Shown here in pieces: positions 7,239 to 59,459 of a stretch of DNA of 59,459 bases. This DNA is from a virus, in IMG/VR virus record IMGVR_UViG_3300036766_001430, positions 1 through 59,459 of that record, one strand, 5' to 3'. Positions within the stretch are counted from its first letter, which is position 1; each line of letters opens with the position of its first letter. A program made the position numbers and the translations under genes. The notes below the pieces were generated by a model. It saw only the letters and a program-made list of their open reading frames with translations. It was not told where the DNA came from and did no database searches.

Positions 7239-8603
7239 CTACAGCATTCGCGCGCGCTGCGCGAGGAAGGATGCGCGTTCGCTCATGCGTGCTGCTAGAC
7301 GCCACGCATCTCGCCCATCTCGAAGGTCCGCACGGAAGCGCGTCGCGATGCCTTCGTCGGTCTGCGCCGGCGCAAGCTCGCGCGCTTCGAGCGCGCTGGC
7401 AACGGAGGCGAGCGCGCGACCCTCTTGGGGTGCTTGAGTCTCGGTGACGCGAGCGGCGTGCGCGGCTCGCGCGGTGGTCGCGCCGTGCTGCGCGGGACTG
7501 GCTTCGAGGAGCGCACCGGCCTGGGCGGTGACGGCGCGCGCTTCGTCGGTCTGGGCGGGTGCCTCGGTGGCGAGGTGCGCGTGGGGAGCGGTCTGGAGGA
7601 CCGCGAGCCCGGTCTGGGCCGGCGCTTCGTTGAGGCTGATGCTCGCGTGGTTGAGGACCGCGATGGCGATCGACTCGTCCTGCGCGGGCTGCGCTTCGAG
7701 GATGAGCGCGGTCTGGGGAGGACGCTTGAGCGGTGCGCGGCCGGTGCGCTTGGCCTTGCGCTGCTCGGCTCCTGCCCCGCCACCAAGGTTCGGCTGAGGG
7801 GTCGTGCCGTCCAGCGAGCCGGCTGCGCTGAGCGTGCCAACGGCATCGAGCGTCGCGGAGATGGCCCCGGCGGTGACGAGGTCCTGAAGGTCCGCGTTGA
7901 GCGTACCGACCGCATCGAGAGTCGCGGAGATGGCCCCGGCGGTGACGAGGTCCTGAAGGTCCGCGTTGGATATCGCGCCAACGGCGGCGAGCGTCGAGGC
8001 AAGCGCCCCGGTACCCGTGAGCTGCGGCGCAGGTAGGGTGCCCGCCGCGTCGAGCGTCGAAGCGACAGAGCCGACCGCGGCAAGGGAACCGGCGAGAGTG
8101 CCGACCCCCGCGACGGTGCCGGCGAGCGCGCCGGTGCCTACCAGGGACGGCGCGGTGAGAGTGCCGACGCCCGCCAGCGTGGCGGCAAGGGCCCCCGCGC
8201 CGACGAGCGTGGGGGCGGTGACGGTACCGACGCCATCGAGGGTCGATGCGAGGGCGCCGGCCCCAAGGAGGCTGGCCGTGGAGATTGCGCCGACACCATC
8301 GAGGGTCGAGGCGAGCGCACCGATGCCGGTGATGGCCGCGGTGATGGTGCCGACCCCATCGAGGGTGGAGGCAAGGGCGCCGATGCCGGTGATGGCCGCG
8401 GTGATGGTGCCGACACCATCGAGGGTGGCCGATGCTGCGAGGTCGCCGAGGAGTGATGCCTGCGCGACTGCGCCGACCGCGATGAGCGTGGCGACGATGG
8501 CGCCGCCAGCTTCGGGGTCCGCACCTTCGGGGTACAGCCGGACGTCGAGCGTCCCGTCCGGCGGCACGAACTCCGGTCGAAGAAAGACGTCGTTGCCGGC
8601 CAT
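7239..8603 (-). CDS. tandem-repeat structural protein
   Basis: A 454-residue repeat protein of unknown function inside the head operon. Residues 1-40 are a short N-terminal domain (MAGNDVFLRPEF). Residues about 40-265 consist of some eleven repeats of about 20 residues built on ATLDGVGTIT-type glycine-turn units, with a 23-residue variant (ADLQDLVTAGAIS) occurring twice. Residues about 290-420 carry a second, different repeat of about 20 residues marked by APAQT-E. The first type looks like a beta-solenoid or a regular beta-turn array; the second is helical. Similar repeat proteins occur in environmental phages without known function. It lies between the virion protein at 8607 and MuF. Confidence 0.7.
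   Translation of the reverse strand: MAGNDVFLRPEFVPPDGTLDVRLYPEGADPEAGGAIVATLIAVGAVAQASLLGDLAASATLDGVGTITAAITGIGALASTLDGVGTITAAITGIGALASTLDGVGAISTASLLGAGALASTLDGVGTVTAPTLVGAGALAATLAGVGTLTAPSLVGTGALAGTVAGVGTLAGSLAAVGSVASTLDAAGTLPAPQLTGTGALASTLAAVGAISNADLQDLVTAGAISATLDAVGTLNADLQDLVTAGAISATLDAVGTLSAAGSLDGTTPQPNLGGGAGAEQRKAKRTGRAPLKRPPQTALILEAQPAQDESIAIAVLNHASISLNEAPAQTGLAVLQTAPHAHLATEAPAQTDEARAVTAQAGALLEASPAQHGATTARAAHAARVTETQAPQEGRALASVASALEARELAPAQTDEGIATRFRADLRDGRDAWRLAARMSERASFLAQRARML
7852..7968. repeat. 69-bp tandem duplication in the repeat-protein gene
   Basis: Bases 7852-7899 and 7921-7968 are identical over 48 bases with a period of 69, equal to 23 codons. The high identity, compared with the more diverged 60-bp units nearby, suggests a recent duplication. 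Confidence 0.85.
8161..8440. repeat. 60-bp tandem repeats in the repeat-protein gene
   Basis: Successive blocks near 8161, 8221, 8281, 8341 and 8401 repeat with a period of 60 bases (20 codons). The units at 8281-8340 and 8341-8400 share long identical runs, including the CGATGCCGGTGATGGCCGCG segment. They encode the repeated GVGTITAAITGIGALAS-type unit. The period is coding, so this is not a CRISPR array. Confidence 0.85.
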
Positions 8604-21542: not shown

Positions 21543-22304
21543 TCAGCCCTTGACCAGCTTCACTTCGGCGTGCCCGCCCTTTCGCGACGGTGCCGCCCTG
21601 CACCACTTCGGGTACGTCTTGACGAGGTAGTCTGCGGCCTCCTTCGAGAGCGCGAGCGTGCGCGTTCCCGTCTGGTGCCCGCCGGGCTCCGACCGCGCGC
21701 GCTGCTTGGGCGCGATGCCGTTGTACCGCACGACCACGCGGTCATCCTGCCAGTAGAGCAGCGTGCGCTCGATGTCGCTCTTGATCGCGCACACGAGCCG
21801 GTGCTTCTTGTCGTTCACGTTCCCGTACAGCGTGCCGATGATCGGACGCAGATCGAACGTCACGTTGCCGCTCATGAAGAAGCCGTTGCACAACGGGTAC
21901 AGCCCCCAGATGCGGGCCTTGGTCTCGGTGCACGCCTCGAAGCCGGCGTTGAACAGCTCGACCAAGTCGGTCACGCGGCTCATGTCGTTCGAGCCCTTGA
22001 CCGGCGATGCCCACACGCCATCCACGTCATCGTCGGACTGCACGAGCCGCGCGCCGTCGGGATAGTGGTCGGTGATGAAGTTGCGCTGCGCACCGAGCCC
22101 CGGCACGCCGACGATGATCTTGCCGTACGTGCTCGCGTCGAGCCCGGCTGCGTAGGACGCGCGCTCTGCCTCGCTTGCGACGAAGAGGTGGATGAGCGCC
22201 GCAGGCACGCCCCCCTCGCGTAGCGTCGTGAGCGTGCGACGCGCGATCGTCTCCACTCGCTGGTATGTCGGAATGGCAACTACCCAGTCGTTCGGTTCGG
22301 TCAT
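21543..22304 (-). CDS. TET-associated glycosyltransferase (putative)
   Basis: A 253-residue GT-A-like glycosyltransferase. Residues 7-15 (WVVAIPTYQR) are the nucleotide-binding opening strand; LGAQRNFITDHYPDGARLV precedes the acidic D-D-D-V-D-G metal motif at 91-96. This layout matches the TET-associated glycosyltransferases that add a sugar to 5-hydroxymethylcytosine in phage DNA. Start at 22304: ATGA overlap with the deacetylase stop and GAGG upstream. It is the last gene of the cassette. Donor sugar cannot be read from the sequence; the adjacent deacetylase suggests an N-acetylated hexosamine. Confidence 0.78.
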   Translation of the reverse strand: MTEPNDWVVAIPTYQRVETIARRTLTTLREGGVPAALIHLFVASEAERASYAAGLDASTYGKIIVGVPGLGAQRNFITDHYPDGARLVQSDDDVDGVWASPVKGSNDMSRVTDLVELFNAGFEACTETKARIWGLYPLCNGFFMSGNVTFDLRPIIGTLYGNVNDKKHRLVCAIKSDIERTLLYWQDDRVVVRYNGIAPKQRARSEPGGHQTGTRTLALSKEAADYLVKTYPKWCRAAPSRKGGHAEVKLVKG

Positions 22305-22963
22305 AGGAGTCCTCTCACTAGCCAGAATGCTTCTGCCGCCGGCACGCCGATCTCTGCCCCGCGCATCCTCGCCCACGTCTCTGCGCGAGCGACATCGAGC
22401 CACGTGCCCGGCCGACCCACCTGCGAGTCGTACGCTGCGAGCGTGAGGAGCTTCGCCGCCAGCACGCGCTCGCTCAACGGCAGGTGGAACTTCCCGCCGG
22501 GCAGCTCTGGCGGGGGCCAGCTCGCTGCGTATGGGTACTCGTACAGCGCCACGAGCCGGATGCCGATCGTGGATGCCCGCGGGCGCAACGCTGCGAGCGT
22601 CGCGCGGTACACGGCCTGGTGGTCCTGGTGGTGGGACGCGTAGGGCACGAAGAGCGAGGTCGGGCGGAAGTCGTCGATGGCTTGGTCGATCACCCTCACG
22701 AGCGACGCCAGCGGCAGCGTGTCGAGCAGGCCCTGGCTGCCGGGGAACGCGACGGTCGCGCCGCGCACGCCCAAGCGCTGCATCGCCAGGTCCATCTCGG
22801 CGCGCGTCTGCTCGCCGGGGCTGGGCGGTGTCTTGCCAAGCGACATCACGAGCACGCGGTGCTCGCGCGAGTCGCGCGAGATGAGCAGACCGCCGCACCC
22901 TAAAGTTTCATCATCCGCATGGGGAGCGACAACCAGGATTCTTTCATCCCACCCAGTGGTCAT
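22301..22963 (-). CDS. PIG-L/LmbE family N-acetylhexosamine deacetylase
   Basis: A 220-residue zinc-dependent deacetylase. The PIG-L signature A-P-H-A-D-D-E at residues 13-19 gives the first zinc ligand and catalytic Asp, and HHQDH at 111-115 gives the second histidine cluster; SLFVPYAS precedes it. Known family members remove acetyl groups from N-acetylglucosamine derivatives. Here it is translationally linked on both sides (ATGA with the radical SAM stop upstream and with the glycosyltransferase start downstream), so the likely substrate is the sugar on modified DNA or its nucleotide precursor. Length is normal. Confidence 0.85.
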   Translation of the reverse strand: MTTGWDERILVVAPHADDETLGCGGLLISRDSREHRVLVMSLGKTPPSPGEQTRAEMDLAMQRLGVRGATVAFPGSQGLLDTLPLASLVRVIDQAIDDFRPTSLFVPYASHHQDHQAVYRATLAALRPRASTIGIRLVALYEYPYAASWPPPELPGGKFHLPLSERVLAAKLLTLAAYDSQVGRPGTWLDVARAETWARMRGAEIGVPAAEAFWLVRGLL

Positions 22964-23841
22964 GCGGATCGCGGGTCCTTCAGCAGTCCAAGGCGGAAGC
23001 CGCCGTTGTAGTCGCAGCGCGCGCACGGCGGTCCGCTGCGGTCCTTGACGTAGATCGCGCGCAGCGCTGCGGCGTGGCGCTCGCCGAACCAGATGTCGCG
23101 CACGCTCTGCTCGGGGAACTTCCCGAGCACGTACTCTTCCTTCCAGTCGTGGCAGCAGAGGACCACGGTACCGTCGTAATACAGGATGAACTCGCGGAAC
23201 GGTCGCGCGCATCCCTTGTCCAGCGGCTCGGTGAGCTGCTCGACGCCGAACTTGTCGAGCATCGTCTTGGGGTCGGAGTTTCCGGCCATGTTGTGCAGCA
23301 CGCGCACCTTCACGAGCCTCGCAGGGTCAGCGACGTCAGGCACGAGCGACACGACCGCAAGCTTCTCGCCGTTGGGGTGGCGCTGGTACGCGGAGAAGTC
23401 GCGGAAGTCCTTGAGCTGGATGTCGGTGCCGGCGGTGACGCGCGCGACCAGCTCCTTGAAGCGGTCGTACGTCCCGTTGTAGCAGTCGATGTTGAGGATG
23501 TTGACCCCCGACTCGAAGAGCCGGATGAGCAGCTCTGGCTCGCGCAGGATGCGCACGCCGTTCGAGAACATCGACACCTGGCTCATCGGCGCGCGGTGAC
23601 GGAACGTGGAGAGCAGCTCCTCCACCTTCGGGTTGAGCGTGGGCTCGCCTCGCAGCGCCAGCTCCACGCGCGGCTTGGGCACCATGCGCACGTAGTCTTG
23701 GAGGAACGCGTCGAGCAGCGCCAGCTCCAGAAAGCGCTTCACCTCGTACTCAGCGGGGTCAGCGTAGATGGGGCAGAACTTGCACGCGAGGTTGCACCCA
23801 CGTGAGAACTCGACCTTGAGCGTCCAGGGGTTCGCGATCAC
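22960..23841 (-). CDS. radical SAM enzyme with SPASM-like C-terminus
   Basis: A 293-residue radical SAM protein. The [4Fe-4S] motif C-x3-C-x2-C is at C16, C20 and C23 (RGCNLACKFC). ELALRGEPTLNP fits the GGEP-like SAM-binding motif. The end has a cysteine cluster (CARPF, VVLCCHDW, GPPCARCDYN) typical of SPASM domains that hold extra iron-sulfur clusters. Start is GTG 23841, overlapping the TET stop (GTGA). Radical SAM enzymes recur in phage TET clusters and are proposed to rearrange or epimerise the attached sugar; the reaction here is unknown. Confidence 0.85.
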   Translation of the reverse strand: MIANPWTLKVEFSRGCNLACKFCPIYADPAEYEVKRFLELALLDAFLQDYVRMVPKPRVELALRGEPTLNPKVEELLSTFRHRAPMSQVSMFSNGVRILREPELLIRLFESGVNILNIDCYNGTYDRFKELVARVTAGTDIQLKDFRDFSAYQRHPNGEKLAVVSLVPDVADPARLVKVRVLHNMAGNSDPKTMLDKFGVEQLTEPLDKGCARPFREFILYYDGTVVLCCHDWKEEYVLGKFPEQSVRDIWFGERHAAALRAIYVKDRSGPPCARCDYNGGFRLGLLKDPRSA

Positions 23842-24779
23842 GACTGGTCGACCGGCACGTCTTCGTCGTCGTCGCGAGCGGCGTTGAGGTCGGTGATGTT
23901 GCCGCGAAGGTGCTGCGCGCGTGCCAGCTCCTCGGCCGGCGACAAGCACTCCACCATGCGCTCGCGGTAGTAGCAGACCACCGAGATGCGTTCGTGCCCC
24001 GCGGGGTCTGCCTCTTCCCCGACAGCGTCCTCGAAGGGCGTGTTGCCGTGGACCTCGTGCACGTCGAACAGGATGAGGTCGCGATCGCCAAGGTCCACGC
24101 CCACGCCGTACGCGGGCACGACCAGGTTGCATCCGCGGTAGGAGCCGCGGCGCAGCACCGCCATCACGCCGAAGCCGGCGTGGAGGTCGCCGCCATCCTT
24201 GTGGTACCCACCCGCGTAGGTGTTGTTGACCGTCATCGTCGTGAACGGTGACTCGGGGATGACGTACGCGGGATGCGTCTTCGCGCACGCGTCCATCTGC
24301 GCCTTGAAGCGACCGGGCACGTGCTCCGCGAGCAGCTTGCCTGCCTCCTGCGCGAGCGGCTTCACCTTGTCCCAGCCCTCGTGGTTGTTGACGATGATCG
24401 GGCTCGTGCCGCAGTACGGGTACCGCGGGTAACGATCGAAGAAGCCGATGACGCACGAGCGGATGGGCAGCGTCTCGCTCGTGTGACCCTTGGTCCCGTC
24501 CTTCTTTACACGGAAGAAGCGCGGCTCACCGGAGAAGACCCCGCGGTTCTTCGTGACGTGCTTCTTGAGCGAGTGCAGGAACGGGTACGCGCCGTTGGCC
24601 GTCTCTTCGGAGATGGCCTTGCGCAGCACCGTGAGCAGTCGCGTGCCGTCAGGCTTGAAGACGGTGACGTCGAGGTCACCCGTAAGCAGCATGCCGTAGT
24701 CGGCCGCGCGAGCGCGCCGGCCGATGACCGCCTTCACCTTCTCCGCATCAACTCGCGCCCGTAGCTGAACTATCTGCAC
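23838..24779 (-). CDS. TET/JBP-like 5-methylpyrimidine dioxygenase
   Basis: A 313-residue Fe(II)/2-oxoglutarate dioxygenase of the TET/JBP class. The iron ligands are H193 and D195 in GGYHKDGGD and H244 in VHEVHGNTP, with the 2-oxoglutarate arginine R264 in RISVVCYYRERM. Upstream, FFDRYPRYPYCGTS and TTMTVNNTYAGGYH match the phage family. Phage TETs oxidise 5-methylcytosine in DNA to 5-hydroxymethylcytosine. GTG start at 24779 with GGAGG about nine bases upstream; it overlaps the ParB-fold gene by 32 bases. It is the key marker of the hypermodification cassette. Confidence 0.88.
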   Translation of the reverse strand: MQIVQLRARVDAEKVKAVIGRRARAADYGMLLTGDLDVTVFKPDGTRLLTVLRKAISEETANGAYPFLHSLKKHVTKNRGVFSGEPRFFRVKKDGTKGHTSETLPIRSCVIGFFDRYPRYPYCGTSPIIVNNHEGWDKVKPLAQEAGKLLAEHVPGRFKAQMDACAKTHPAYVIPESPFTTMTVNNTYAGGYHKDGGDLHAGFGVMAVLRRGSYRGCNLVVPAYGVGVDLGDRDLILFDVHEVHGNTPFEDAVGEEADPAGHERISVVCYYRERMVECLSPAEELARAQHLRGNITDLNAARDDDEDVPVDQS

Positions 24780-25461
24780 GTCGGATCGCCTCCATCGTGG
24801 TGTCGGTCACCGTCTTCGTTCCGTAGACAGCCGCGAGCTTCTTCATGTGCTCCATGAACTCGCCGTGCGTCGTGTCGTTGAGGAATAGCTGCACCATGCG
24901 CACGTTCGACGTCGGCACCGCATCCGACGGCCCATCCGCCGGACCCCTGGCCGTGGGGTCGAGATCCGTGCCCATGTCGACCTCGGGCACCGCGAGCAGC
25001 GCCATCAGCACGTCGTCCTGGAAGCCGAGGTCGAGTGCGAGGTTGGAGCCGTCTCCTTCGGCGAACTGGATGTCGCGCACCAGCTCGGCCAACGCCGTCT
25101 CATCCCACGCACCGCGCTTCTGATTCATCTTGACGGTGAGCGCCTTGGCCTGCGCCTCGGTGAGCTTGTGCAGGAAGACCATCGGTCCGTCCTTGAACCC
25201 AAGCTCGCGCGCGACGAGCAGCCGGTGCTCCCCGTCGATGACGACGTTCTTCGTCGCACCCTCCTGATCCGTGCCCCAGATGAGGAGTGCCTGGGACGCA
25301 AGCCACCCGTCCTCTTCGAGCCCGTGCTTGAGAGACGCTCGGATGAACGGCGTCATCCGATTCGGGTTCCACGTGTTGGGCTCCACCTTGGAGAGCAACG
25401 TCATCGCGGCTTTGCCGACGACGCGGGGGGCCTTGGGAGTCTCGGTGGCTTCGTCGTTCAT
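24748..25461 (-). CDS. ParB-fold nuclease-domain protein of the modification cassette
   Basis: A 237-residue protein with a ParB/sulfiredoxin-fold domain: EPNTWNPNRMTPFI, then VVIDGEHRLLVARELG (the ParB box-like D-G-x-H-R) and ALTVKMNQKRGAWD. ParB-fold proteins accompany phage DNA-base modification genes and may act as DNA-binding or nucleotide-handling components; many are not partition proteins. The start MNDEATETPK at 25461 is preferred over a longer one. It immediately precedes and overlaps the TET gene. Confidence 0.8.
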   Translation of the reverse strand: MNDEATETPKAPRVVGKAAMTLLSKVEPNTWNPNRMTPFIRASLKHGLEEDGWLASQALLIWGTDQEGATKNVVIDGEHRLLVARELGFKDGPMVFLHKLTEAQAKALTVKMNQKRGAWDETALAELVRDIQFAEGDGSNLALDLGFQDDVLMALLAVPEVDMGTDLDPTARGPADGPSDAVPTSNVRMVQLFLNDTTHGEFMEHMKKLAAVYGTKTVTDTTMEAIRRADSSATGAS

Positions 25462-30825: not shown

Positions 30826-31011
30826 CTACCGGGGCGACTTGTTAGCGAGAGATCTTTTTACGGCGATACACAACGAAAGCTCCGTCCCATATGCGCGTTT
30901 CTGACACACGTGGTACCCGTTGTGCTTCCTGCACGTCTTCGCGCAGATGTAACCATCCTTGCCGCGAGCGACGCACGGCGCGTTGAAGATCCAAGCGAGC
31001 ACACGCCTCAC
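30826..31011 (-). CDS. small Cys-rich hypothetical protein
   Basis: A 61-residue protein starting at GTG 31011, overlapping the polymerase stop (GTGA). It has five cysteines (NAPCVARGKDGYICAKTCRK, YHVCQKRA, LSLCIAVK), possibly a zinc site. No family recognised. Confidence 0.5.
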   Translation of the reverse strand: MRRVLAWIFNAPCVARGKDGYICAKTCRKHNGYHVCQKRAYGTELSLCIAVKRSLANKSPR

Positions 31012-33590
31012 GCTGCCGCCTCGAACTTGTACTTCGAGAGCGAGCCCCACGACGGTCCGACCTCCACGTCCACCTCCAGCACGCAGAGGCACGGCCACGA
31101 GACCATGATCTGCCTCACCTCGTACGCGACCTCATCCACCGCGTCATCGCGCACTTCGAGCAGCAGCGCGTCGTGCACGGGGAGCACGAGCTTGGCGGGC
31201 ACCGCGTTGTCGCGGATCCACGAGACGGTCGCATGGACCGACGCGAGCCCGTAGTCACTCGCCGTGCCCTGCACCGGCGTGTTGGTCGCGCCGTTCTCGG
31301 CGGTGCGACGCGTCTGCTCATCCGAGTCAGCGATGCGCCACATGGGCCGACGACGCGCGCGGTGGCCGTCCCACTCCGTCCAGATCTCTCCCGTCTTGCG
31401 CGCTTCGAGCACGAGGTTCTCGCTCCACTTGGCGAGCTGCTTGAAGTGCCCGAGGATAGCTTCGCGGATGCGGCCGGCTTCCTTCACGGTCACGCCGATC
31501 TTCACCGCCAGCGCTCCGTCGCCCATGCCGTAGAGCAGACCGAAGTTCACGATCTTCGCTGCGGTCCGGTGCATCTTGAGCACCTGGGACGGGTCGATGC
31601 CCCACGCGGTCTTCGAGATCAGCTCCGCAGTGCGCTGGTGGTAGTCGACGCCGGCCGCGAAGATCGCGAGCATGTCCGGGTCACGCGACAGCGCTGCGGC
31701 GATGCGCAGTTCGAGCTGGCTGTAGTCGAGCTGGACGAGCTTGTGCCCCGGCGAGGCACGGAAGACGTCGCGCGCCATCTTGCCCTCGATCGAGTCGGCA
31801 CGAGGGATCTGCTGCAGGTTCGGCGACTCGCACGAGAGTCGACCGGACCGCGCGCCGTCCAGCTTCAGGTTCGGGTGGATGCGCCCATCGCTCCGAATGT
31901 GCGGGAGCATCCCGGCCGCGAACGAGCCGCGCATCTTCGCGAACCCTCGGTGGTCGAGGATGAGCCCCGGCAGCGGGTGATGCTTGCGCAGTTGGTCGAG
32001 CGTCGCTTCGGACGTGCTCGGTTGCTCGCTGGCCGTGCGCTCCAGGATGGGCAGGCCCAGCTTGTTGTAGAGAAGCTCCCCGACCTGGATGGGTGAGTCC
32101 CAGTTGATGGTCGTGCTGTAGAGGGCGAGCCGCTGCTGGATCTCTGCGATCTGTCCCTGGAGGTGCGTGTCGAACGCTTCAAGCGCGTCTCGCGACGCGG
32201 GCACGCCCCACGCCTCGACTTCGGCGACTGCCTCAGCGGCCGGCCCCACGAGCACGTCCCACGTGCGCCGCAGGTCGGGCTGCGTGTCGAGGTCGGCTTC
32301 GAGCTTCTCACCGAGCAGCGCCGTCACGTACGCATCGCGCGCGTTGTACCGGTACAGCACCGGCTTGGGGATGAGCCCGTACACGTACTTGCCCTTCTCG
32401 GTCGGGTCATCCCGGATGACCTTCTCCAAGAGCGCGTCCGGCGCGAGCGCGGCCGGCTGGACGAAGAAGAACGCCAAGTTCTTGGTCTTGGCGTCCTTCT
32501 TCTCCTGCGCGAGCACGAGACGGATCTTCGCCATCGCGTCCTCGATGGCCTGCTCTGCCTCGCCCTTGTGTCCACCGAGCCCGAGCAGGTCGGCCATCGC
32601 ACCGAGCGCGCCGTTCGCTTCGGGTTCGAGCAGCTTGCGCCAGAGCCGTGTGTCGCCGTAGCTACCGCGCGTGAGCACACCGAAGCACGCGAGCACGGCC
32701 GTGCGATCGTACTTCTCGTTCTGCCCGACCTTGCGGTGCGCCGGGTCGGCCAGCCACGCGAGCAGCAGCTTGCGTGCGCCGGCGTCAGCGAGACCTTCCG
32801 AGGTCCACACGTAGACGTCGCTCTGGCCGCGCCCGCAGACCGCGAGCGACAGCATGCGGAACGACGGGTCGAACATCAGCCCCGCGGTCTCCACGTCCCA
32901 CGCCGCCCACGCCGCCTCGGTAAACGCCGCGATGGCGGTGCGCGCTTCGGTGGCGTTCGTAACGAGGTACGCCTTGGGCTCCTCCCACGCAGGCACCGTG
33001 ACCGGCGCGGTGCACGCCCACTCCACATCCTCCTCGAAGTGCCCGCGAAGGAAGCGATTACGTGAGGCGATACCCGGGTGGAGCACGGCGAACACAGGCA
33101 CGGGCGCAATGCCCTTGGTCGAGCAGAGCCACGCGAAGCCGCGGCGCGTCTGTTGCGGGGAGATGCCCCGGCCGAGCAGCGAATGCGTGGCGGGCGTGCC
33201 TAACGCGATGATGCGCTGCGGCTGCACCTCGCGAATGACCTGCACGAGATACGTACGGCACGCGCTCAGTTCCTTCTCACCGACGGTGCGCGCGCCTGGA
33301 AAGCACTTCACACCGTGGTCCAGGGCCAGCGGTCCGGCCCAAGTACGCGCGATGACACGGCGGAGGTAAGCCCCATTCGCGCCCACAAGCGGCCGACCGC
33401 GGGTGTCTTCCTCGCGCCCTGGAGAGTCAGTCACGACGAGCAGGCCGCCGGGCTCGCCCTCTGGCGACATGCACGGCGACTTCACCCCCTCGCTCAGCTT
33501 GCACCGCGTGCATGCGGTGTTGATATCGGTGCCGTGCTCGACCTCGACAGCGAAGCGTGGCGGTTCGGGGAAGAGCGGAAGTGACTTCAT
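31008..33590 (-). CDS. family A DNA polymerase fused to an N-terminal uracil-DNA glycosylase-like domain
   Basis: An 860-residue replicative polymerase. Residues 20-205: UDG superfamily, type 4-like, with CTRCKLSEGVKSPC (C27, C30, C40), TDSPGREEDTRGRPLVGANG and IIALGTPATHSLLG. Residues about 230-420: 3'-5' exonuclease (AAWDVETAG). Residues about 430-860: polymerase with motif A LDYSQLELR, motif B TAAKIVNFGLLYGMG and motif C VLPVHDALLLEV. UDG-PolA fusions are known in phages, including SPO1-like ones with modified pyrimidines. The UDG part may have structural or base-screening roles. Confidence 0.88.
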   Translation of the reverse strand: MKSLPLFPEPPRFAVEVEHGTDINTACTRCKLSEGVKSPCMSPEGEPGGLLVVTDSPGREEDTRGRPLVGANGAYLRRVIARTWAGPLALDHGVKCFPGARTVGEKELSACRTYLVQVIREVQPQRIIALGTPATHSLLGRGISPQQTRRGFAWLCSTKGIAPVPVFAVLHPGIASRNRFLRGHFEEDVEWACTAPVTVPAWEEPKAYLVTNATEARTAIAAFTEAAWAAWDVETAGLMFDPSFRMLSLAVCGRGQSDVYVWTSEGLADAGARKLLLAWLADPAHRKVGQNEKYDRTAVLACFGVLTRGSYGDTRLWRKLLEPEANGALGAMADLLGLGGHKGEAEQAIEDAMAKIRLVLAQEKKDAKTKNLAFFFVQPAALAPDALLEKVIRDDPTEKGKYVYGLIPKPVLYRYNARDAYVTALLGEKLEADLDTQPDLRRTWDVLVGPAAEAVAEVEAWGVPASRDALEAFDTHLQGQIAEIQQRLALYSTTINWDSPIQVGELLYNKLGLPILERTASEQPSTSEATLDQLRKHHPLPGLILDHRGFAKMRGSFAAGMLPHIRSDGRIHPNLKLDGARSGRLSCESPNLQQIPRADSIEGKMARDVFRASPGHKLVQLDYSQLELRIAAALSRDPDMLAIFAAGVDYHQRTAELISKTAWGIDPSQVLKMHRTAAKIVNFGLLYGMGDGALAVKIGVTVKEAGRIREAILGHFKQLAKWSENLVLEARKTGEIWTEWDGHRARRRPMWRIADSDEQTRRTAENGATNTPVQGTASDYGLASVHATVSWIRDNAVPAKLVLPVHDALLLEVRDDAVDEVAYEVRQIMVSWPCLCVLEVDVEVGPSWGSLSKYKFEAAA

Positions 33591-33964
33591 GCCTCGGCTA
33601 GCTCCTCGGGTGACGCGGGGCGACCGCGGTGCGCGTGCTCATCGAGCGCGCTCTGCATCTCGCGTGCGCCGTACGGCCACTGCATCCAGGGCGCACGTAC
33701 GAAGCGTGCGGAGAACGGTGCCCAGCCTGGGTCGTTGTCGGTCATGAAGCGCCAGTCTATAGGTACGTGGCCGAGGTCGTGAGCCGCGTGGATGATGGCC
33801 CACGCTTCGGTCTCGTCGGCGGCCATGACCGCGCAGCAGATCGCGTACAGCGTCACGCCCAGGTCCGTCTCGCGCGTCTGCGTCACCCACCACGGCCCGC
33901 GGTACTCCCACTTGGTCGGGTCGGCTGACCAGAAGCTCGCCCAGAACGGGAGCAGCGCACTCAC
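33587..33964 (-). CDS. hypothetical protein
   Basis: A 125-residue protein starting at GTG 33964 (GTGA overlap with the methyltransferase stop). Aromatic-rich (PFWASFWSADPTKWEYRGPW, WAIIHAAHDLGHVPIDWRF). The frequent Trp and final acidic PEELAEA suggest a small globular protein. No family recognised; it overlaps the polymerase start. Confidence 0.55.
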   Translation of the reverse strand: MSALLPFWASFWSADPTKWEYRGPWWVTQTRETDLGVTLYAICCAVMAADETEAWAIIHAAHDLGHVPIDWRFMTDNDPGWAPFSARFVRAPWMQWPYGAREMQSALDEHAHRGRPASPEELAEA

Positions 33965-34659
33965 TTCGGCACCGCCACGTAACCTTGCTCGGAGAAGATC
34001 GACTTGAACGCGGCAACGCACGTCTCGTCATCGAGGTCATCGGCGACGCGTCGAGGCAGGTACACCACCGCGCTCGCGTTGGGAGGTGAGTCGCCGGCGG
34101 TGAGCGTGTCTCCGTCACGGACGAGGTAGCGCACGCGCGTGCGGGGAACGCAGAACGGGAACGCCTGCGGAGGAAGCACGCCGCGAGGCTGCGCGGTCTG
34201 CATCAGCTCCAGCGAGTAGGCGACGAAGATCGCCTGCGTGACCGCGCCCACCGCGTACTCGTGCAGGAGCTTCGCCCACCAGATGCCCGCGTTGGACTTG
34301 CCGCCGATCCTGCCGCCCGGCGGGTTCAGGAAGACGCTCCCAGCCCAGGCTTGTGCCAGACCATCGTCCTCCTGCGAGTGGAGGCGCGTCGCCTTGACCG
34401 TGCTCCGGTTCACGAACGCGTTGCTCGCGGGGTCGAGGTCGATGCCGCCCATGACGGCGCGCGCCTTGTCGATGATCCACGGTGGCGTGTAGTGCTCGGC
34501 GCTCTTTGCTGAGTGCTTGGCGACAGCCGGTAGCACTCGCTCAGCAAGGGAGCGCCAGCAACCCGGGTCACCCTCGCGATGCCGGCCGGGGCCTAGACCC
34601 GCTGCGTGCCCCGACGGGCAATCGCACCCGCCATCACCGTCCGACCAGTTCGGGCTCAT
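33961..34659 (-). CDS. phage N6-adenine DNA methyltransferase (Dam-like, PF05869 type)
   Basis: A 232-residue adenine methyltransferase of the phage DNA N6-adenine-MTase type. SAEHYTPPWIIDKARAVMG, then GIDLDPASNAF, and the catalytic N-P-P motif in VFLNPPGG identify it; YSLELMQTAQ follows the pattern. It can protect phage DNA against host restriction. The first 40 residues are Cys/Gly-rich and variable. Start at 34659, overlapping the upstream stop as ATGA. This is not a cytosine-C5 methyltransferase. Confidence 0.82.
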   Translation of the reverse strand: MSPNWSDGDGGCDCPSGHAAGLGPGRHREGDPGCWRSLAERVLPAVAKHSAKSAEHYTPPWIIDKARAVMGGIDLDPASNAFVNRSTVKATRLHSQEDDGLAQAWAGSVFLNPPGGRIGGKSNAGIWWAKLLHEYAVGAVTQAIFVAYSLELMQTAQPRGVLPPQAFPFCVPRTRVRYLVRDGDTLTAGDSPPNASAVVYLPRRVADDLDDETCVAAFKSIFSEQGYVAVPK

Positions 34660-42274: not shown

Positions 42275-42777
42275 TCTCCTTCGGTCCATCGCAGACCGCG
42301 GATGGTAAGCGAGATGGTTGTTTGCGAAACGCGTAGCTTGCGAGCGATGGCGTCCTGCGCCATCCCGCGGAGTGCGAGAGCGCGCGCCTGGTCGGCGGTC
42401 TTCGGTGTTAGCTTCGCGCTCGGGTTCGACGTGCCTGGCATGCGCCAGACGCGTCCGGTCGATCGGCGATCAAGCAGGTTCTCGCGACGCGTACCCCACA
42501 CCAGATTGGTGAGGCGGTTGTCGGCTCCGACGTCGTTGCGATGACGGCACTCCAGGCCCCTCGGGCAAGGTCCGACGAACGCTTCGAGCACGAGCCGGTG
42601 CACCTTCTCGACTCCGTCAGGGAGGGTGACCGTCACGTGCCCAGAGCGCTGCGTTCTGCCGACCATGATGCGTCCGGCGCGAGTGCCCTTGCCTGCCGTC
42701 GCTCGGCGAACGCGTCCGAGGTCTGAGACCTCGTATCGCGAATCACGCGGGCACGCACGCCATCGTTCGCGCTTCAC
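42271..42777 (-). CDS. NUMOD4/HNH-type homing endonuclease-like protein
   Basis: A 168-residue protein. N-terminal W-x-x-x-P-x-x-x-x-YEVSDLGRVR is the NUMOD4 signature; VHRLVLEAFVGP, CRHRNDVGADNRLTNL and GTRRENLLD form the HNH core; the end has a NUMOD-like helix-turn-helix (QARALALRGMAQDAIARKL). A free-standing HNH homing endonuclease inserted between the ParB-like gene and the HTH gene. The catalytic core looks intact. Confidence 0.82.
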   Translation of the reverse strand: MKRERWRACPRDSRYEVSDLGRVRRATAGKGTRAGRIMVGRTQRSGHVTVTLPDGVEKVHRLVLEAFVGPCPRGLECRHRNDVGADNRLTNLVWGTRRENLLDRRSTGRVWRMPGTSNPSAKLTPKTADQARALALRGMAQDAIARKLRVSQTTISLTIRGLRWTEGE

Positions 42778-43412
42778 TCACCCTCGATGAGCACGAGCAG
42801 AGCGGTGCCGAGCGAGCCCCCGGCGGCAGCACGACGAAGCCGGCGCTTCGCCTTCGCCATGTCGGCCTTCGTCTCGAAGGCGACCTCCAAGATGAACTCG
42901 GAGGGGGTCGGCCGCACGGCCGTCTCGTCACCGAGGTGCTGCCCCATGAGGTCGTCCGCATCGGGGTCGGTGTTGGCCGCGCGCAGCAGCGCGTTGACCT
43001 CGTCCTCGCTGTAGCCGGTGAGCAGCAGCTCCTCGTGCGTGTGCCCGGCGTTCACCATCTCGGCGAGCACTTCAGCGACGATGCCCAGGTCCAGCTCGCC
43101 ACGCAGGCGGTTCATGCTGATCCGAAGCATCTTCTCGTCCTCCAACGGATAGTCCGGTGGGAGGACGACGGCAGCGATCTCCACGCGCTCGGCAACGAGC
43201 GCGGCCTTCGAGCGGTGGTGCCCGTCCACGATGCGGAAGCGGCCGGGGGGCGCGCCGTTCGTCGCAACCAAGATCGGCTGCAGCTCCCCGAACCGTCCCA
43301 TCGCCTTCGCCAACGTGGCGACGTCCTTGTCCCCCATCACGTTGGGGTTGTTCTCGCAGGCGTCGAGTGCGTCGAGCGCAACGACCTGCTGAGTGGTCTC
43401 GTACCTTGTCAT
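42774..43412 (-). CDS. ParB-fold protein (second copy)
   Basis: A 212-residue ParB/sulfiredoxin-fold protein: LDACENNPNVMGDKDVATL, then VDGHHRSKAAL (ParB box) and YPLEDEKMLRISMNRLRGE. C-terminal 90 residues are helical, with a basic KAKRRLRRAA segment. It is a different subtype from the one in the modification cassette. Start at 43412 with AGGAG upstream and ATGA overlap with the sigma-like gene. Role unknown: DNA-binding or nucleotide-processing. Confidence 0.75.
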   Translation of the reverse strand: MTRYETTQQVVALDALDACENNPNVMGDKDVATLAKAMGRFGELQPILVATNGAPPGRFRIVDGHHRSKAALVAERVEIAAVVLPPDYPLEDEKMLRISMNRLRGELDLGIVAEVLAEMVNAGHTHEELLLTGYSEDEVNALLRAANTDPDADDLMGQHLGDETAVRPTPSEFILEVAFETKADMAKAKRRLRRAAAGGSLGTALLVLIEGE

Positions 43413-46831: not shown

Positions 46832-48412
46832 TCAGTCGTCTACTTCGATGTACGTGCCCCACGTGATTCGGGACGAGTAGCCTTGCCCCTCTGCGCTGGG
46901 CTTGCGCTTGTAGGGTCCGACGAGCAGCCAGATGACCGCCATGCCGGGGGGACACGTGACCGGCGCATCGCCATCGCCGTCGGTGACGAAGATAACGACC
47001 TCTGGACGCTGCTCCCCCTTGAGCGCGTCGAGTGCTTTGAACGCGGGCACGAAGCTCGTCCCGCCACCGCCCTTGAGCAGCTTGACGAGGTCGCTCACGC
47101 TCGTGATCTTCTGGAGCGTGTGCACCGCGCAGTCGCACGTGCCGTAGAGCAAGGGTGCGTTGAGCGTCTTGATCACGGCAGCCGACTCGCGCAACGCAGC
47201 GGTCATCTCTGTCCTGCCCATCGACCCAGAGGTGTCGATCATGAGCGCGACGTTGGGGACCACCGCACGAGGTCGAGGCATCAACGCTCGACCCACGCCA
47301 TAGCCGATGCCGGCCTGACGCTTGGACGGTCCGTCGAAGCGGTACACGTTCGCTCCAGAGCGAACCCGCGCCGCTCGCTTGACCGCTTGCTGGAGCTTCT
47401 GCTGCCAGCGCACCTTCGCGATGCCCGTCACCGCGTCAGCGAGGAGCCGCAGACCCGCAGGCAGTCCGCCACGACCCGCAGCAGCGTGCTCCTGGATCGC
47501 CATCGCCATCTGCTTCGCGATGCGCTGCATCTCTGCCTCGCTGCGCTCGTCTTCCGGGTTGATGTTCGCCTCGTCATCGAGCGCGTTCCCCGCGCACGAC
47601 CCGCACTGCCCACGACCCACGCCGTGGGGGTCGCCCGGCTTCACCTCGCCGGGCTCCTCGTCCTCTGAGGAGGGGTCGCCCCCCTCGCCGGACCCAGAGC
47701 CCTCGCCGGACCCTTCCGAGGGCTCCTCAGCGTCTTCGGAGCCATCCCCGTCCTCGCCGGGCTCCTCGCCGGACCCTTCGGTGGGGTCGCCCCCATCCTC
47801 GTCCTCGCCGGGCTCGCCTTCCGAGCCCTCGCCGGGCTCCTCGTCCTGCGCGCCCTCGCCGGGCTCGCCTGCGGGCTCCTCGCCGGGCTCCTCGTCCTCG
47901 TCCTCGCCGGGCTCGCCTTGCGGCTGCTTCGCCTTCTTCGCAGCCTCCTGCTGCAAGTCCAGCTCGTGGTACTGCTCGGCGGTGAGACCTTCGGGGGTGC
48001 CGGGCCCAAGGTCGCTCGGCCAGCATCCGGTGTCCGGGCCATCGGGCAGTTTGAAGCCCATGTCGCGCACGATGGTGTTGATCGCGCGGTCAGCGTTGCG
48101 GTTCCACCGCGCGGGGTCGCGCGACCCTCGCCGGTCACCGTGGTGATCGAGGATGTGCAGCGCTTCGTGGACGAGGAGCCCGGCCGACTTCTCGATGCCC
48201 TGCTGAGCGACCCAGGCAGGGTCATAGATGAGCACGCCGCGGTAGGTAACGCCGATCGTGTTCAGACCGGGACGAGCGACGAAGGTGAGCTTCGTCAGAC
48301 CCGTCGCGAAGAACGGCGCCTTGGCACGCACCATGAGGCGCGCGGTGCCCAAGATCGCTTCGGCTTCCTCTTGCACATCGATCGTGGCAACGACTCGCGC
48401 CGCGCCCGACAT
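46832..48412 (-). CDS. DUF2201-like metallopeptidase / VWA-like protein
   Basis: A 526-residue protein of three parts. Residues 1-150: DUF2201-type domain with the metal motif HEALHILDHHGDR. Residues about 165-290: an acidic Gly/Glu/Pro/Asp linker. Residues about 345-526: VWA-like domain with the MIDAS motif MIDTSGSMG and later FVTDGDGDAP. Such proteins pair with a MoxR ATPase, here directly upstream with one-base overlap. Likely a chaperone-like complex acting on a metal or protein substrate; target unknown. Confidence 0.8.
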   Translation of the reverse strand: MSGAARVVATIDVQEEAEAILGTARLMVRAKAPFFATGLTKLTFVARPGLNTIGVTYRGVLIYDPAWVAQQGIEKSAGLLVHEALHILDHHGDRRGSRDPARWNRNADRAINTIVRDMGFKLPDGPDTGCWPSDLGPGTPEGLTAEQYHELDLQQEAAKKAKQPQGEPGEDEDEEPGEEPAGEPGEGAQDEEPGEGSEGEPGEDEDGGDPTEGSGEEPGEDGDGSEDAEEPSEGSGEGSGSGEGGDPSSEDEEPGEVKPGDPHGVGRGQCGSCAGNALDDEANINPEDERSEAEMQRIAKQMAMAIQEHAAAGRGGLPAGLRLLADAVTGIAKVRWQQKLQQAVKRAARVRSGANVYRFDGPSKRQAGIGYGVGRALMPRPRAVVPNVALMIDTSGSMGRTEMTAALRESAAVIKTLNAPLLYGTCDCAVHTLQKITSVSDLVKLLKGGGGTSFVPAFKALDALKGEQRPEVVIFVTDGDGDAPVTCPPGMAVIWLLVGPYKRKPSAEGQGYSSRITWGTYIEVDD

Positions 48413-49770
48413 CAGAGCACCCCCTTCGTGCCGGCCAGCTCCATCGGCATGCGGAGCGCGATCATGACTGGGCGCGCTTCCGGCGAGAACGCGAGCCCGG
48501 CCTTCGTGAGCGTCTGCGCGGCCGGCGCGATGATGTCGAAGTTCTTGGACGCACCAAGAGCCCTCCAGAGACGCGCTGAGCGCTCCTCTCGATTAGCTGC
48601 GGTGACCGGCTTCACGAGCGCGGCCCAGGCGTTGATGATAGCCGCGCAGCGATCTAGACGGCGCGCGTCCCAGGTGAACGGCACCTTGCCGTCGGCGACA
48701 TCGAGGATGGACGGCATGTCCGCCTGCTCGCAGAAGATCGCGAACGCCTCGTACGCCTTCTGTCCGACGAACGAAGACACGAACGTGTCGCGGTCCGTCG
48801 CGCTCAGGCCGTGGACGATGCTCGATGCGTAGGCACGCGTCGCCATCTCCCAGGTCCGGTCGCTCGCCCACGCCAGCTCCGTCGTGATCTCGCCCTCCTT
48901 CGGGCACATGTTCTTGAAGCCAGGCATCGCGCGGTGGAACGAGGTCTCCAGGCCGACCGCGGTGGCCCACGCGCCGTTCTTCCACGCCGCCATTACGCGG
49001 GCTTCCTCGGCGTCACCGTCGATCGTGTCGTCGGTGGTCGCTTCGTCGTCGATGCCGAGCATGTAGTCGCAGTGCTGCTCGTTGCTCATGTTCCCCCACT
49101 GGATGTGACCGAAGCGATTGGCGAGGGGCAACGAGAGGTCTTGCCCGCCGGCTGCCTGGTGCACGGGGTTCATCGCACCGAGGACGCGCACCCGGCCGTT
49201 GAGCATGAAGCCGGCGATCGTCCGCTCGGAGCAGAGCGTGAGCTGCGGTGCCTGGATGTGACCGGGTGCCGTGCTCATCTCATCGTTGAACACGATGCCC
49301 GGTCGGCCACCGTCGAACATACGCGTCCAGTCGGGGCGAGGATGCGCCAGCGTCATGTCGTCGTTCGCGAAGGCGCGAACCTGCTCGGCGAGGGCGACGC
49401 TGTACTCTGCGCCGTTCTGCACCGCGGTGATGACGCGGTCGATGCACGTCCCCACGTCGCCACCGCCACGCGGCACCGGCACGACGCCGAACTGCCCCTC
49501 ACCGTCACCAGGCACGAGCACCTTACACTGCCAGGGAGCGACGATGCCGTTGGAGAGCGAGGTGATGCCCGCGGCCTTCGACTTGAGCACCGCGGTCTTG
49601 CCGCCACCGGGGTCGCCGCAGAAGAGAATGTTCAGGCCCCAGCGGACCTCGTACGCAGCGAGCTGGTGGACTTTGCCCGAGGGCACGGTGAAGGCTCTAC
49701 GCTGCCGGCCCGCCGGCGTGAAGAGCATCGCGTGGATGATAGAGGCGTTCACGTGATTGAGATTGTTCAT
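48412..49770 (-). CDS. MoxR-type AAA+ ATPase
   Basis: A 452-residue AAA+ ATPase. Walker A CGDPGGGKTAVL, Walker B-like GIVFNDEMSTAPG, then VLGAMNPVHQAAGG and an arginine-finger region. It partners with the VWA protein that follows. C-terminal half is helical. In bacteria MoxR-VWA pairs mature other proteins; in a phage the target is unknown. Confidence 0.8.
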   Translation of the reverse strand: MNNLNHVNASIIHAMLFTPAGRQRRAFTVPSGKVHQLAAYEVRWGLNILFCGDPGGGKTAVLKSKAAGITSLSNGIVAPWQCKVLVPGDGEGQFGVVPVPRGGGDVGTCIDRVITAVQNGAEYSVALAEQVRAFANDDMTLAHPRPDWTRMFDGGRPGIVFNDEMSTAPGHIQAPQLTLCSERTIAGFMLNGRVRVLGAMNPVHQAAGGQDLSLPLANRFGHIQWGNMSNEQHCDYMLGIDDEATTDDTIDGDAEEARVMAAWKNGAWATAVGLETSFHRAMPGFKNMCPKEGEITTELAWASDRTWEMATRAYASSIVHGLSATDRDTFVSSFVGQKAYEAFAIFCEQADMPSILDVADGKVPFTWDARRLDRCAAIINAWAALVKPVTAANREERSARLWRALGASKNFDIIAPAAQTLTKAGLAFSPEARPVMIALRMPMELAGTKGVL

Positions 49771-59233: not shown

Positions 59234-59459
59234 ACGCAGCGATGCTCAGCGCAGGTTTCGACTCGTCGTGGTCGCGGTCGTGGTCGGGGTCGCGGTCGTG
59301 GTCGGGGTCGCGGTCGTGGTCGTTGTCGCGGTCGGGGTCGCGGTCGGGGTCGGGGTCGTGGTCGGGGTCGCGGTCGTGGTCGCGGTCGCGGTCGCGGTCG
59401 TGGTCGCGGTCGTGGTCGGGGTCGGGGTCGTGGTCGGGGTCGTGGTCGTGGTTGCGGTC
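59230..59459 (+). CDS. serine-alternating repeat protein, cut by window end
   Basis: A gene starting MNAAMLSAGFDSS at 59230 and running off the right end. From residue 12 every second residue is Ser and the other is Trp, Arg or Gly, with single Leu exceptions. The coding DNA is a hexamer repeat. It overlaps the previous stop by four bases (ATGA). Similar serine-alternating proteins occur in some phages with no known role. Confidence 0.6.
   Translation, partial: MNAAMLSAGFDSSWSRSWSGSRSWSGSRSWSLSRSGSRSGSGSWSGSRSWSRSRSRSWSRSWSGSGSWSGSWSWLR
59266..59459. repeat. (TCGNGG)n hexanucleotide repeat
   Basis: About 32 copies of a hexamer TCG-NGG, where N is T, C or G but almost never A. Each hexamer encodes Ser plus Trp (TGG), Arg (CGG) or Gly (GGG). 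The assembly stops within it, which is expected for such a repeat. The length in the genome is unknown. Confidence 0.95.

Follow-up and report, generated by a model that had tools for sequence, protein, structure and literature searches.

Which modified base does a phage make when its genome joins a DNA oxygenase, a glycosyltransferase, a deacetylase and a radical SAM enzyme in a single operon? Such an operon lies in IMG/VR virus record IMGVR_UViG_3300036766_001430, a linear record of 59,459 bases that was analysed at its full length and is called the window here. The window carries portal, capsid, head-maturation and replication genes, and the genome is probably incomplete because the left contig end runs off among structural genes. 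On the minus strand, from 25461 to 21543, genes for a ParB-like protein, a TET/JBP oxygenase, a radical SAM enzyme, a PIG-L deacetylase and a TET-associated glycosyltransferase (TAGT) follow one another head to tail, with every joint overlapping. We conclude that this is a real DNA hypermodification cassette, and that its BtrN-like radical SAM gene is a new part of it, an earlier description in the literature being not fully excluded.

The arrangement proposed in an initial sequence-only reading, with five genes at these coordinates and with these overlaps, was correct in both the sequence and the translations. The ParB and TET genes overlap by 32 bases, the TET and radical SAM genes have GTGA in common, and the radical SAM/PIG-L and PIG-L/glycosyltransferase joints are each ATGA. 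Tet_JBP, TAGT, PIG-L, and Radical_SAM with SPASM all exceeded their curated Pfam cut-offs. This supports the proposal that the genes form a cassette for hypermodifying phage DNA, one that contains TET, a TET-associated glycosyltransferase and a deacetylase. The key residues named for TET, radical SAM, PIG-L and glycosyltransferase were present and were conserved in aligned relatives. A chance run of open frames was rejected, since each of the five genes has a family match and four of them are found elsewhere in the same order. The cassette itself had no nucleotide-level match in any record of the phage collection.

PIG-L and radical SAM relatives are also found in glycan clusters, and the cassette might then act on something besides DNA, for example a surface glycan. 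TET/JBP and TAGT are, however, DNA-base families matched above cut-off, and when the assignment was tested by profile, the oxygenase and glycosyltransferase did not fall into non-DNA families. In addition, a ParB-like DNA-binding gene heads the operon here and at 45 other loci. As TET, TAGT and ParB argue for DNA, a surface-glycan operon was rejected, and we consider any non-DNA target very improbable.

The first cassette gene (24748 to 25461, minus strand, as for all five) was assigned through PHROG ParB families (1e-14) and phrog_498, a family of ParB plus DNA methyltransferase, at 1e-17; Pfam ParB_N was weak (E = 0.25). In 46 loci, window included, such a gene stands immediately upstream of TET, and its product probably serves the oxygenase as a partner for DNA binding or targeting. 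A second ParB-like gene is present at 42774 to 43412, ~17 kb from the cassette. The TET protein (23838 to 24779) matched Pfam Tet_JBP (E = 7.4e-18, 64.7 bits against a cut-off of 34.9) and phrog_24024 (2.9e-46), with the iron ligands H193, D195 and H244 and the 2-oxoglutarate-binding R264 invariant among seven phage TETs. It is thus a predicted Fe(II)/2-oxoglutarate oxygenase, hydroxylating a 5-methylpyrimidine in DNA. Mycobacteriophage TET/JBP proteins (gene 2 of L067 and L069; phrog_6059) are labelled "queuine tRNA-ribosyltransferase," an apparent misannotation.

The PIG-L/LmbE-type zinc deacetylase (22301 to 22963; Pfam E = 2e-14, 54.6 bits against a cut-off of 28.2) has both zinc motifs, PHxDD and HxDH, with H15/D17/D18 and H112-Q-D-H115 invariant among five homologues. 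Its relatives in the PDB are TT1542, LmbE-like, Dbv21, and BshB, and it is predicted to remove the N-acetyl group of an N-acetylhexosamine. The reading frame is open further upstream, and two things fix the start: the gene overlap and the conservation of the zinc motif near the N terminus. The glycosyltransferase (21543 to 22304), predicted to glycosylate 5-hydroxymethyl bases, matched TAGT (PF20691; E = 7.4e-11, 42.8 bits against a cut-off of 27.5) and phrog_25200 (6e-25), and two of the aspartates in its DDDVDG motif were invariant among nine homologues. An AlphaFold model of good quality (pLDDT, the per-residue confidence score, 86.7) had a GT-A fold and matched GT-A glycosyltransferases at 1e-6, including fucosyl-, GlcNAc-, and galactosyltransferases at a template-modelling score of ~0.5. 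Because these matches span several transferase types, the sugar donor cannot be read from the model; an N-acetylated donor is the simplest guess because of the deacetylase. That the base probably carries an amino sugar, as first suggested from the sequence, is supported. A pattern search with TAGT alone gave no viral relatives. In T-even phages, TAGT is the enzyme that adds the second glucose (PMC13390438, PMC13216743; 2026), and one of these two papers describes many solitary TAGTs, perhaps novel transferases.

The radical SAM gene (22960 to 23841) has a strong codon signal, and its product matched Radical_SAM (9.5e-11) and SPASM (6.3e-12) in Pfam. Seven cysteines, C16/C20/C23 (CX3CX2C) and C211/C229/C273/C276, were invariant among six relatives. 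The SPASM-like end noted earlier is real insofar as there is a C-terminal iron-sulfur domain, but it holds a single four-cysteine site rather than the two clusters of a full SPASM domain; this auxiliary site aligns with that of BtrN, and a single site is the BtrN twitch type. By sequence alone, the best solved relative was BtrN, a 2-deoxy-scyllo-inosamine dehydrogenase (E = 2.7e-6, all others ≥0.08). A family profile built from the window protein and its viral relatives matched BtrN over the full length at 1.2e-33, with the next family at 3.5e-10, although much of this score was contributed by the relatives.

Without this gene, the cassette has close counterparts. A deacetylase search found contigs L060 (IMGVR_UViG_3300036715_002961, 88.8 kb) and L062 (IMGVR_UViG_3300005758_000132, 109 kb), both with ParB-TET-PIG-L-TAGT in the order of the window. 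The PIG-L and TAGT proteins of L060 are each 59% identical to those of the window, and no radical SAM gene was found anywhere in either contig. The same four genes occur in Arthrobacter phage Altadena (genes 60-64) and mycobacteriophage Rich (genes 1-5); GenBank labels for members of the core include "Tet-like J-binding protein," "glycosyltransferase," and also "glucosaminyl deacetylase." In these two phages the genes lie close to one another on one strand, and no C5-methyltransferase was detected in either genome. They differ in that both lack the radical SAM gene and place TAGT before PIG-L, Rich adds a P-loop kinase, and their TETs are only ~22-27% identical to that of the window. The gene that comes after ParB-TET in marine contigs is often one for TAGT or an FkbM-type methyltransferase. 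Because the core recurs in two viral contigs, Altadena, and Rich, we count it as a known kind of cassette that swaps tailoring genes. The suggestion of an undescribed system hence stands in part: the core was already annotated in actinobacteriophages, while the BtrN-like radical SAM gene is the new part. A further arrangement was seen in contigs L143, L145, L148, L151-L153, L159, and L162-L166, where PIG-L is followed by another gene (in L145, a WbqC family member, PF08889, 1.9e-60) and then by ParB and a TAGT-like glycosyltransferase. No TET was detected in these cassettes; L163 and L164 have a C5-methyltransferase ~4 kb upstream of theirs.

Where, then, do relatives of the radical SAM protein occur? 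The nearest viral relatives (phmmer, E 1e-15 to 2e-17) are in contigs L211, L189, L199, and L205, which were found through nearness to PIG-L genes. BtrN-like radical SAM genes near PIG-L were likewise seen in L207 and L208 alongside these phage contigs. Read gene by gene, the L189 and L205 clusters have nucleotide-sugar epimerases, RmlD-like reductases, and aminotransferases beside the radical SAM gene, and two more relatives, one in viral contig L010 and one in planctomycete L063, have sugar or glycan genes around them. An amino sugar is the most likely substrate, because the relatives sit in amino-sugar or sugar clusters and because of the kinship with BtrN. Using the window protein as the query (P0003; phmmer E <1e-9, distance to PIG-L ≤6 kb), similar genes were found near PIG-L in 12 of 80 viral PIG-L loci versus 0 of 117 TET loci (Fisher p = 1e-5, overstated because some loci are near-copies). 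No other TET locus examined had such a radical SAM gene.

Such a distribution could also mean that a ParB-TET-PIG-L-TAGT operon picked up the gene only recently, as a passenger that adds little to the base, the final product being a plain amino-sugar base; the gene's absence from both sister contigs of otherwise identical gene order fits this. Its intact motifs, codon signal, and four-base overlaps on both sides speak against this, as does the repeated pairing of radical SAM with PIG-L elsewhere, and we regard the passenger explanation as improbable.

We next consider the base on which the cassette acts. A cytosine-type TET needs 5-methylcytosine (5mC) and hence a C5-methyltransferase, while thymine is already 5-methylated and requires no methyltransferase, as in base J. 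Using the PF00145 profile, we found no C5-methyltransferase in the window contig (itself a fragment of a genome), in 46 contigs with near relatives of the window TET, in L060-L062, which include the sister contigs, or in the complete genomes of six ParB-TET phages. The search works, because it detected the enzyme of Methylophilales phage Melnitz, adjoining its TET (E = 2.2e-56), the only carrier among the window, the TET-relative contigs, L060-L062, and the complete TET phage genomes; as a further positive control, 3 of 28 other records were positive. TET loci gathered with two different TET seeds fell into two contexts, C5-methyltransferase-TET (n = 67) and ParB-TET (n = 46, including the window), with none having both, although loci within each context are closely related, making this a contrast between clades and not 113 independent events. 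Tree building placed the methyltransferase-linked TETs in a single, fully supported group with a long branch and the window TET outside it, the exact position of the latter being loose owing to long branches.

A TET free of any methyltransferase is most simply read as JBP-like and acting on thymine, since thymine is already 5-methylated, and the gene content of the window, TET/JBP plus glycosyltransferase with no C5-methyltransferase found in the contig, fits this type. Thymine is thus the more likely target, and the cytosine target of the sequence-only reading was not borne out. The ParB-TET pair also adjoins an amino-acid:DNA transferase (PF18724) in mycobacteriophage LilMcDreamy, and the same transferase with a P-loop kinase in Gordonia phage Wooper. 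Both families are known from 5-hydroxymethyluracil (5hmU) hypermodification, so the PF18724 neighbor points to thymine, though it is no proof. The same chemistry might instead run on cytosine, with a phage or host methyltransferase making 5mC on which TET, TAGT, PIG-L, and radical SAM act, along the lines of the known methyltransferase-TET clusters. Cytosine is the base for which TAGT and phage TETs are best known (T-even TAGT: PMC13216743, PMC13390438), the residue three positions after the HxD motif is aspartate in both TET groups, and the contig is incomplete. Given the negative methyltransferase searches of the window, its close relatives, the sister contigs, and six complete ParB-TET phages, and the separate long-branch clade of methyltransferase-linked TETs, however, we judge the cytosine version to be somewhat unlikely. 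That HxD+3 residue (D198) was itself tried as a thymine-versus-cytosine discriminator and rejected, as it does not differ between the groups.

Other features of the window and its relatives touch on this subject. Just one DNA methyltransferase was seen in the window, a small one at 33961 to 34536 (phrog_111, 2e-19), probably of the N6-adenine type judging from its motifs. At 31008 to 33590, a family A DNA polymerase (PF00476, 3e-88) is fused to an N-terminal uracil-DNA glycosylase superfamily domain (PF03167, 3.9e-11); a similar fusion is reported from the hydroxymethyluracil phage SPO1. In L065 and 13 related contigs, a C5-methyltransferase-TET pair is followed by a P-loop kinase like the Gordonia-phage "5-hmU DNA kinase," which suggests that the kinase in these contigs is a 5-hydroxymethylcytosine kinase.

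From the observed gene content, families, motifs, overlaps, recurrence of the core, two TET contexts, and BtrN kinship, we infer a post-replicative pathway. First, the TET/JBP enzyme, perhaps guided by ParB, would hydroxylate a pyrimidine at its 5-methyl group once the base is part of DNA, with thymine to 5hmU likelier than the 5mC reaction. TAGT would then place a sugar on the new hydroxymethyl group, for which host UDP-GlcNAc is the simplest donor, and PIG-L would strip the acetyl group to leave a cationic amino sugar on DNA. Finally, in what we take to be the order of the last two steps, the BtrN-like enzyme, predicted to alter the attached sugar, would oxidise or epimerise a hydroxyl-bearing carbon of the amino sugar. 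The resulting DNA would be bulky and charged, and might be expected to resist restriction and CRISPR nucleases. We hold this sequence of steps from thymine to a radical-altered amino sugar to be about evenly balanced between right and wrong. That its end product is a base new to DNA, namely 5hmU with a free amino sugar that is oxidised (a keto-amino sugar) or epimerised by radical SAM while DNA-bound, is a more tentative proposal.

Besides the clade-level nature of the TET contrast, several points weigh against this pathway. A C5-methyltransferase could sit in the missing part of the genome, and methylation by the host is possible. The P-loop kinase family also adjoins methyltransferase-linked TETs (14 loci), and was rejected as a 5hmU mark for this reason. 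Oxygen, which TET requires, is harmful to the clusters of radical SAM enzymes. The structure model of the radical SAM protein was poor (pLDDT 46.9) and unfit for structure search. The catalytic arginine of BtrN is R152, and the window protein has no arginine in that column, the region being gapped with R180 nearby; because this arginine seems not to be conserved, the reaction may differ and may be an epimerisation instead of an oxidation. Lastly, no nucleotide-sugar gene was seen around the cassette. This same absence of sugar synthesis genes also counts against an alternative in which TET, TAGT, and PIG-L modify DNA while the radical SAM enzyme alters a free nucleotide sugar or other small molecule before transfer. 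In favor of that alternative, BtrN acts on a free aminocyclitol, and the relatives in L189, L205, L010, and planctomycete L063 lie within nucleotide-sugar or glycan clusters; yet the gene overlaps both that of the DNA-acting TET and that of the deacetylase, and we find the alternative unlikely.

The proposed DNA-bound pathway has parallels in three known systems. In base J synthesis in kinetoplastids, JBP1/2 hydroxylate thymine in DNA and a J-glucosyltransferase glycosylates the 5hmU, with methyltransferase unnecessary. If the target here is indeed thymine, the first two steps would be alike, whereas base J involves no deacetylase or radical SAM step and its glycosyltransferase is from another family. 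In butirosin biosynthesis, BtrN is a twitch radical SAM enzyme and BtrD is an amino-sugar deacetylase acting after GlcNAc transfer. The pairing resembles that in the window, although the butirosin substrates are free aminocyclitol antibiotic precursors and not DNA. Phage C5-methyltransferase-TET clusters, reportedly described by Burke et al. in PNAS in 2021 and exemplified by Melnitz, likewise rely on a phage TET to act on a 5-methylpyrimidine, and some of them have TAGT or a kinase close by, but they have an adjacent C5-methyltransferase, no ParB, and a TET of the separate clade.

Elsewhere in the window, a putative metallopeptidase/VWA protein (DUF2201; 46832 to 49770) adjoins a gene that by eye resembles a MoxR-type ATPase. 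Low-complexity repetitive coding stretches lie at 7239 to 8603 and 59268 to 59459 (Ala/Gly/Thr repeats, and a Val/Gly/Ala run at the contig end).

If the proposed pathway is true, radical chemistry on a DNA-linked sugar would join the known ways of altering DNA, bringing aminoglycoside-style tailoring to a DNA polymer within a thymine-directed TET pathway marked by ParB in place of a methyltransferase. Two kinds of phage TET would then be separable by their neighbors, those paired with a methyltransferase acting on cytosine and those paired with ParB probably acting on thymine. A general question thereby becomes testable: many of the phage TETs that owe their annotation to analogy with 5mC oxidation might, like JBP, oxidise thymine. 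Altadena, Rich, and Wooper grow in laboratory hosts, so the nucleosides of their virions are directly measurable.

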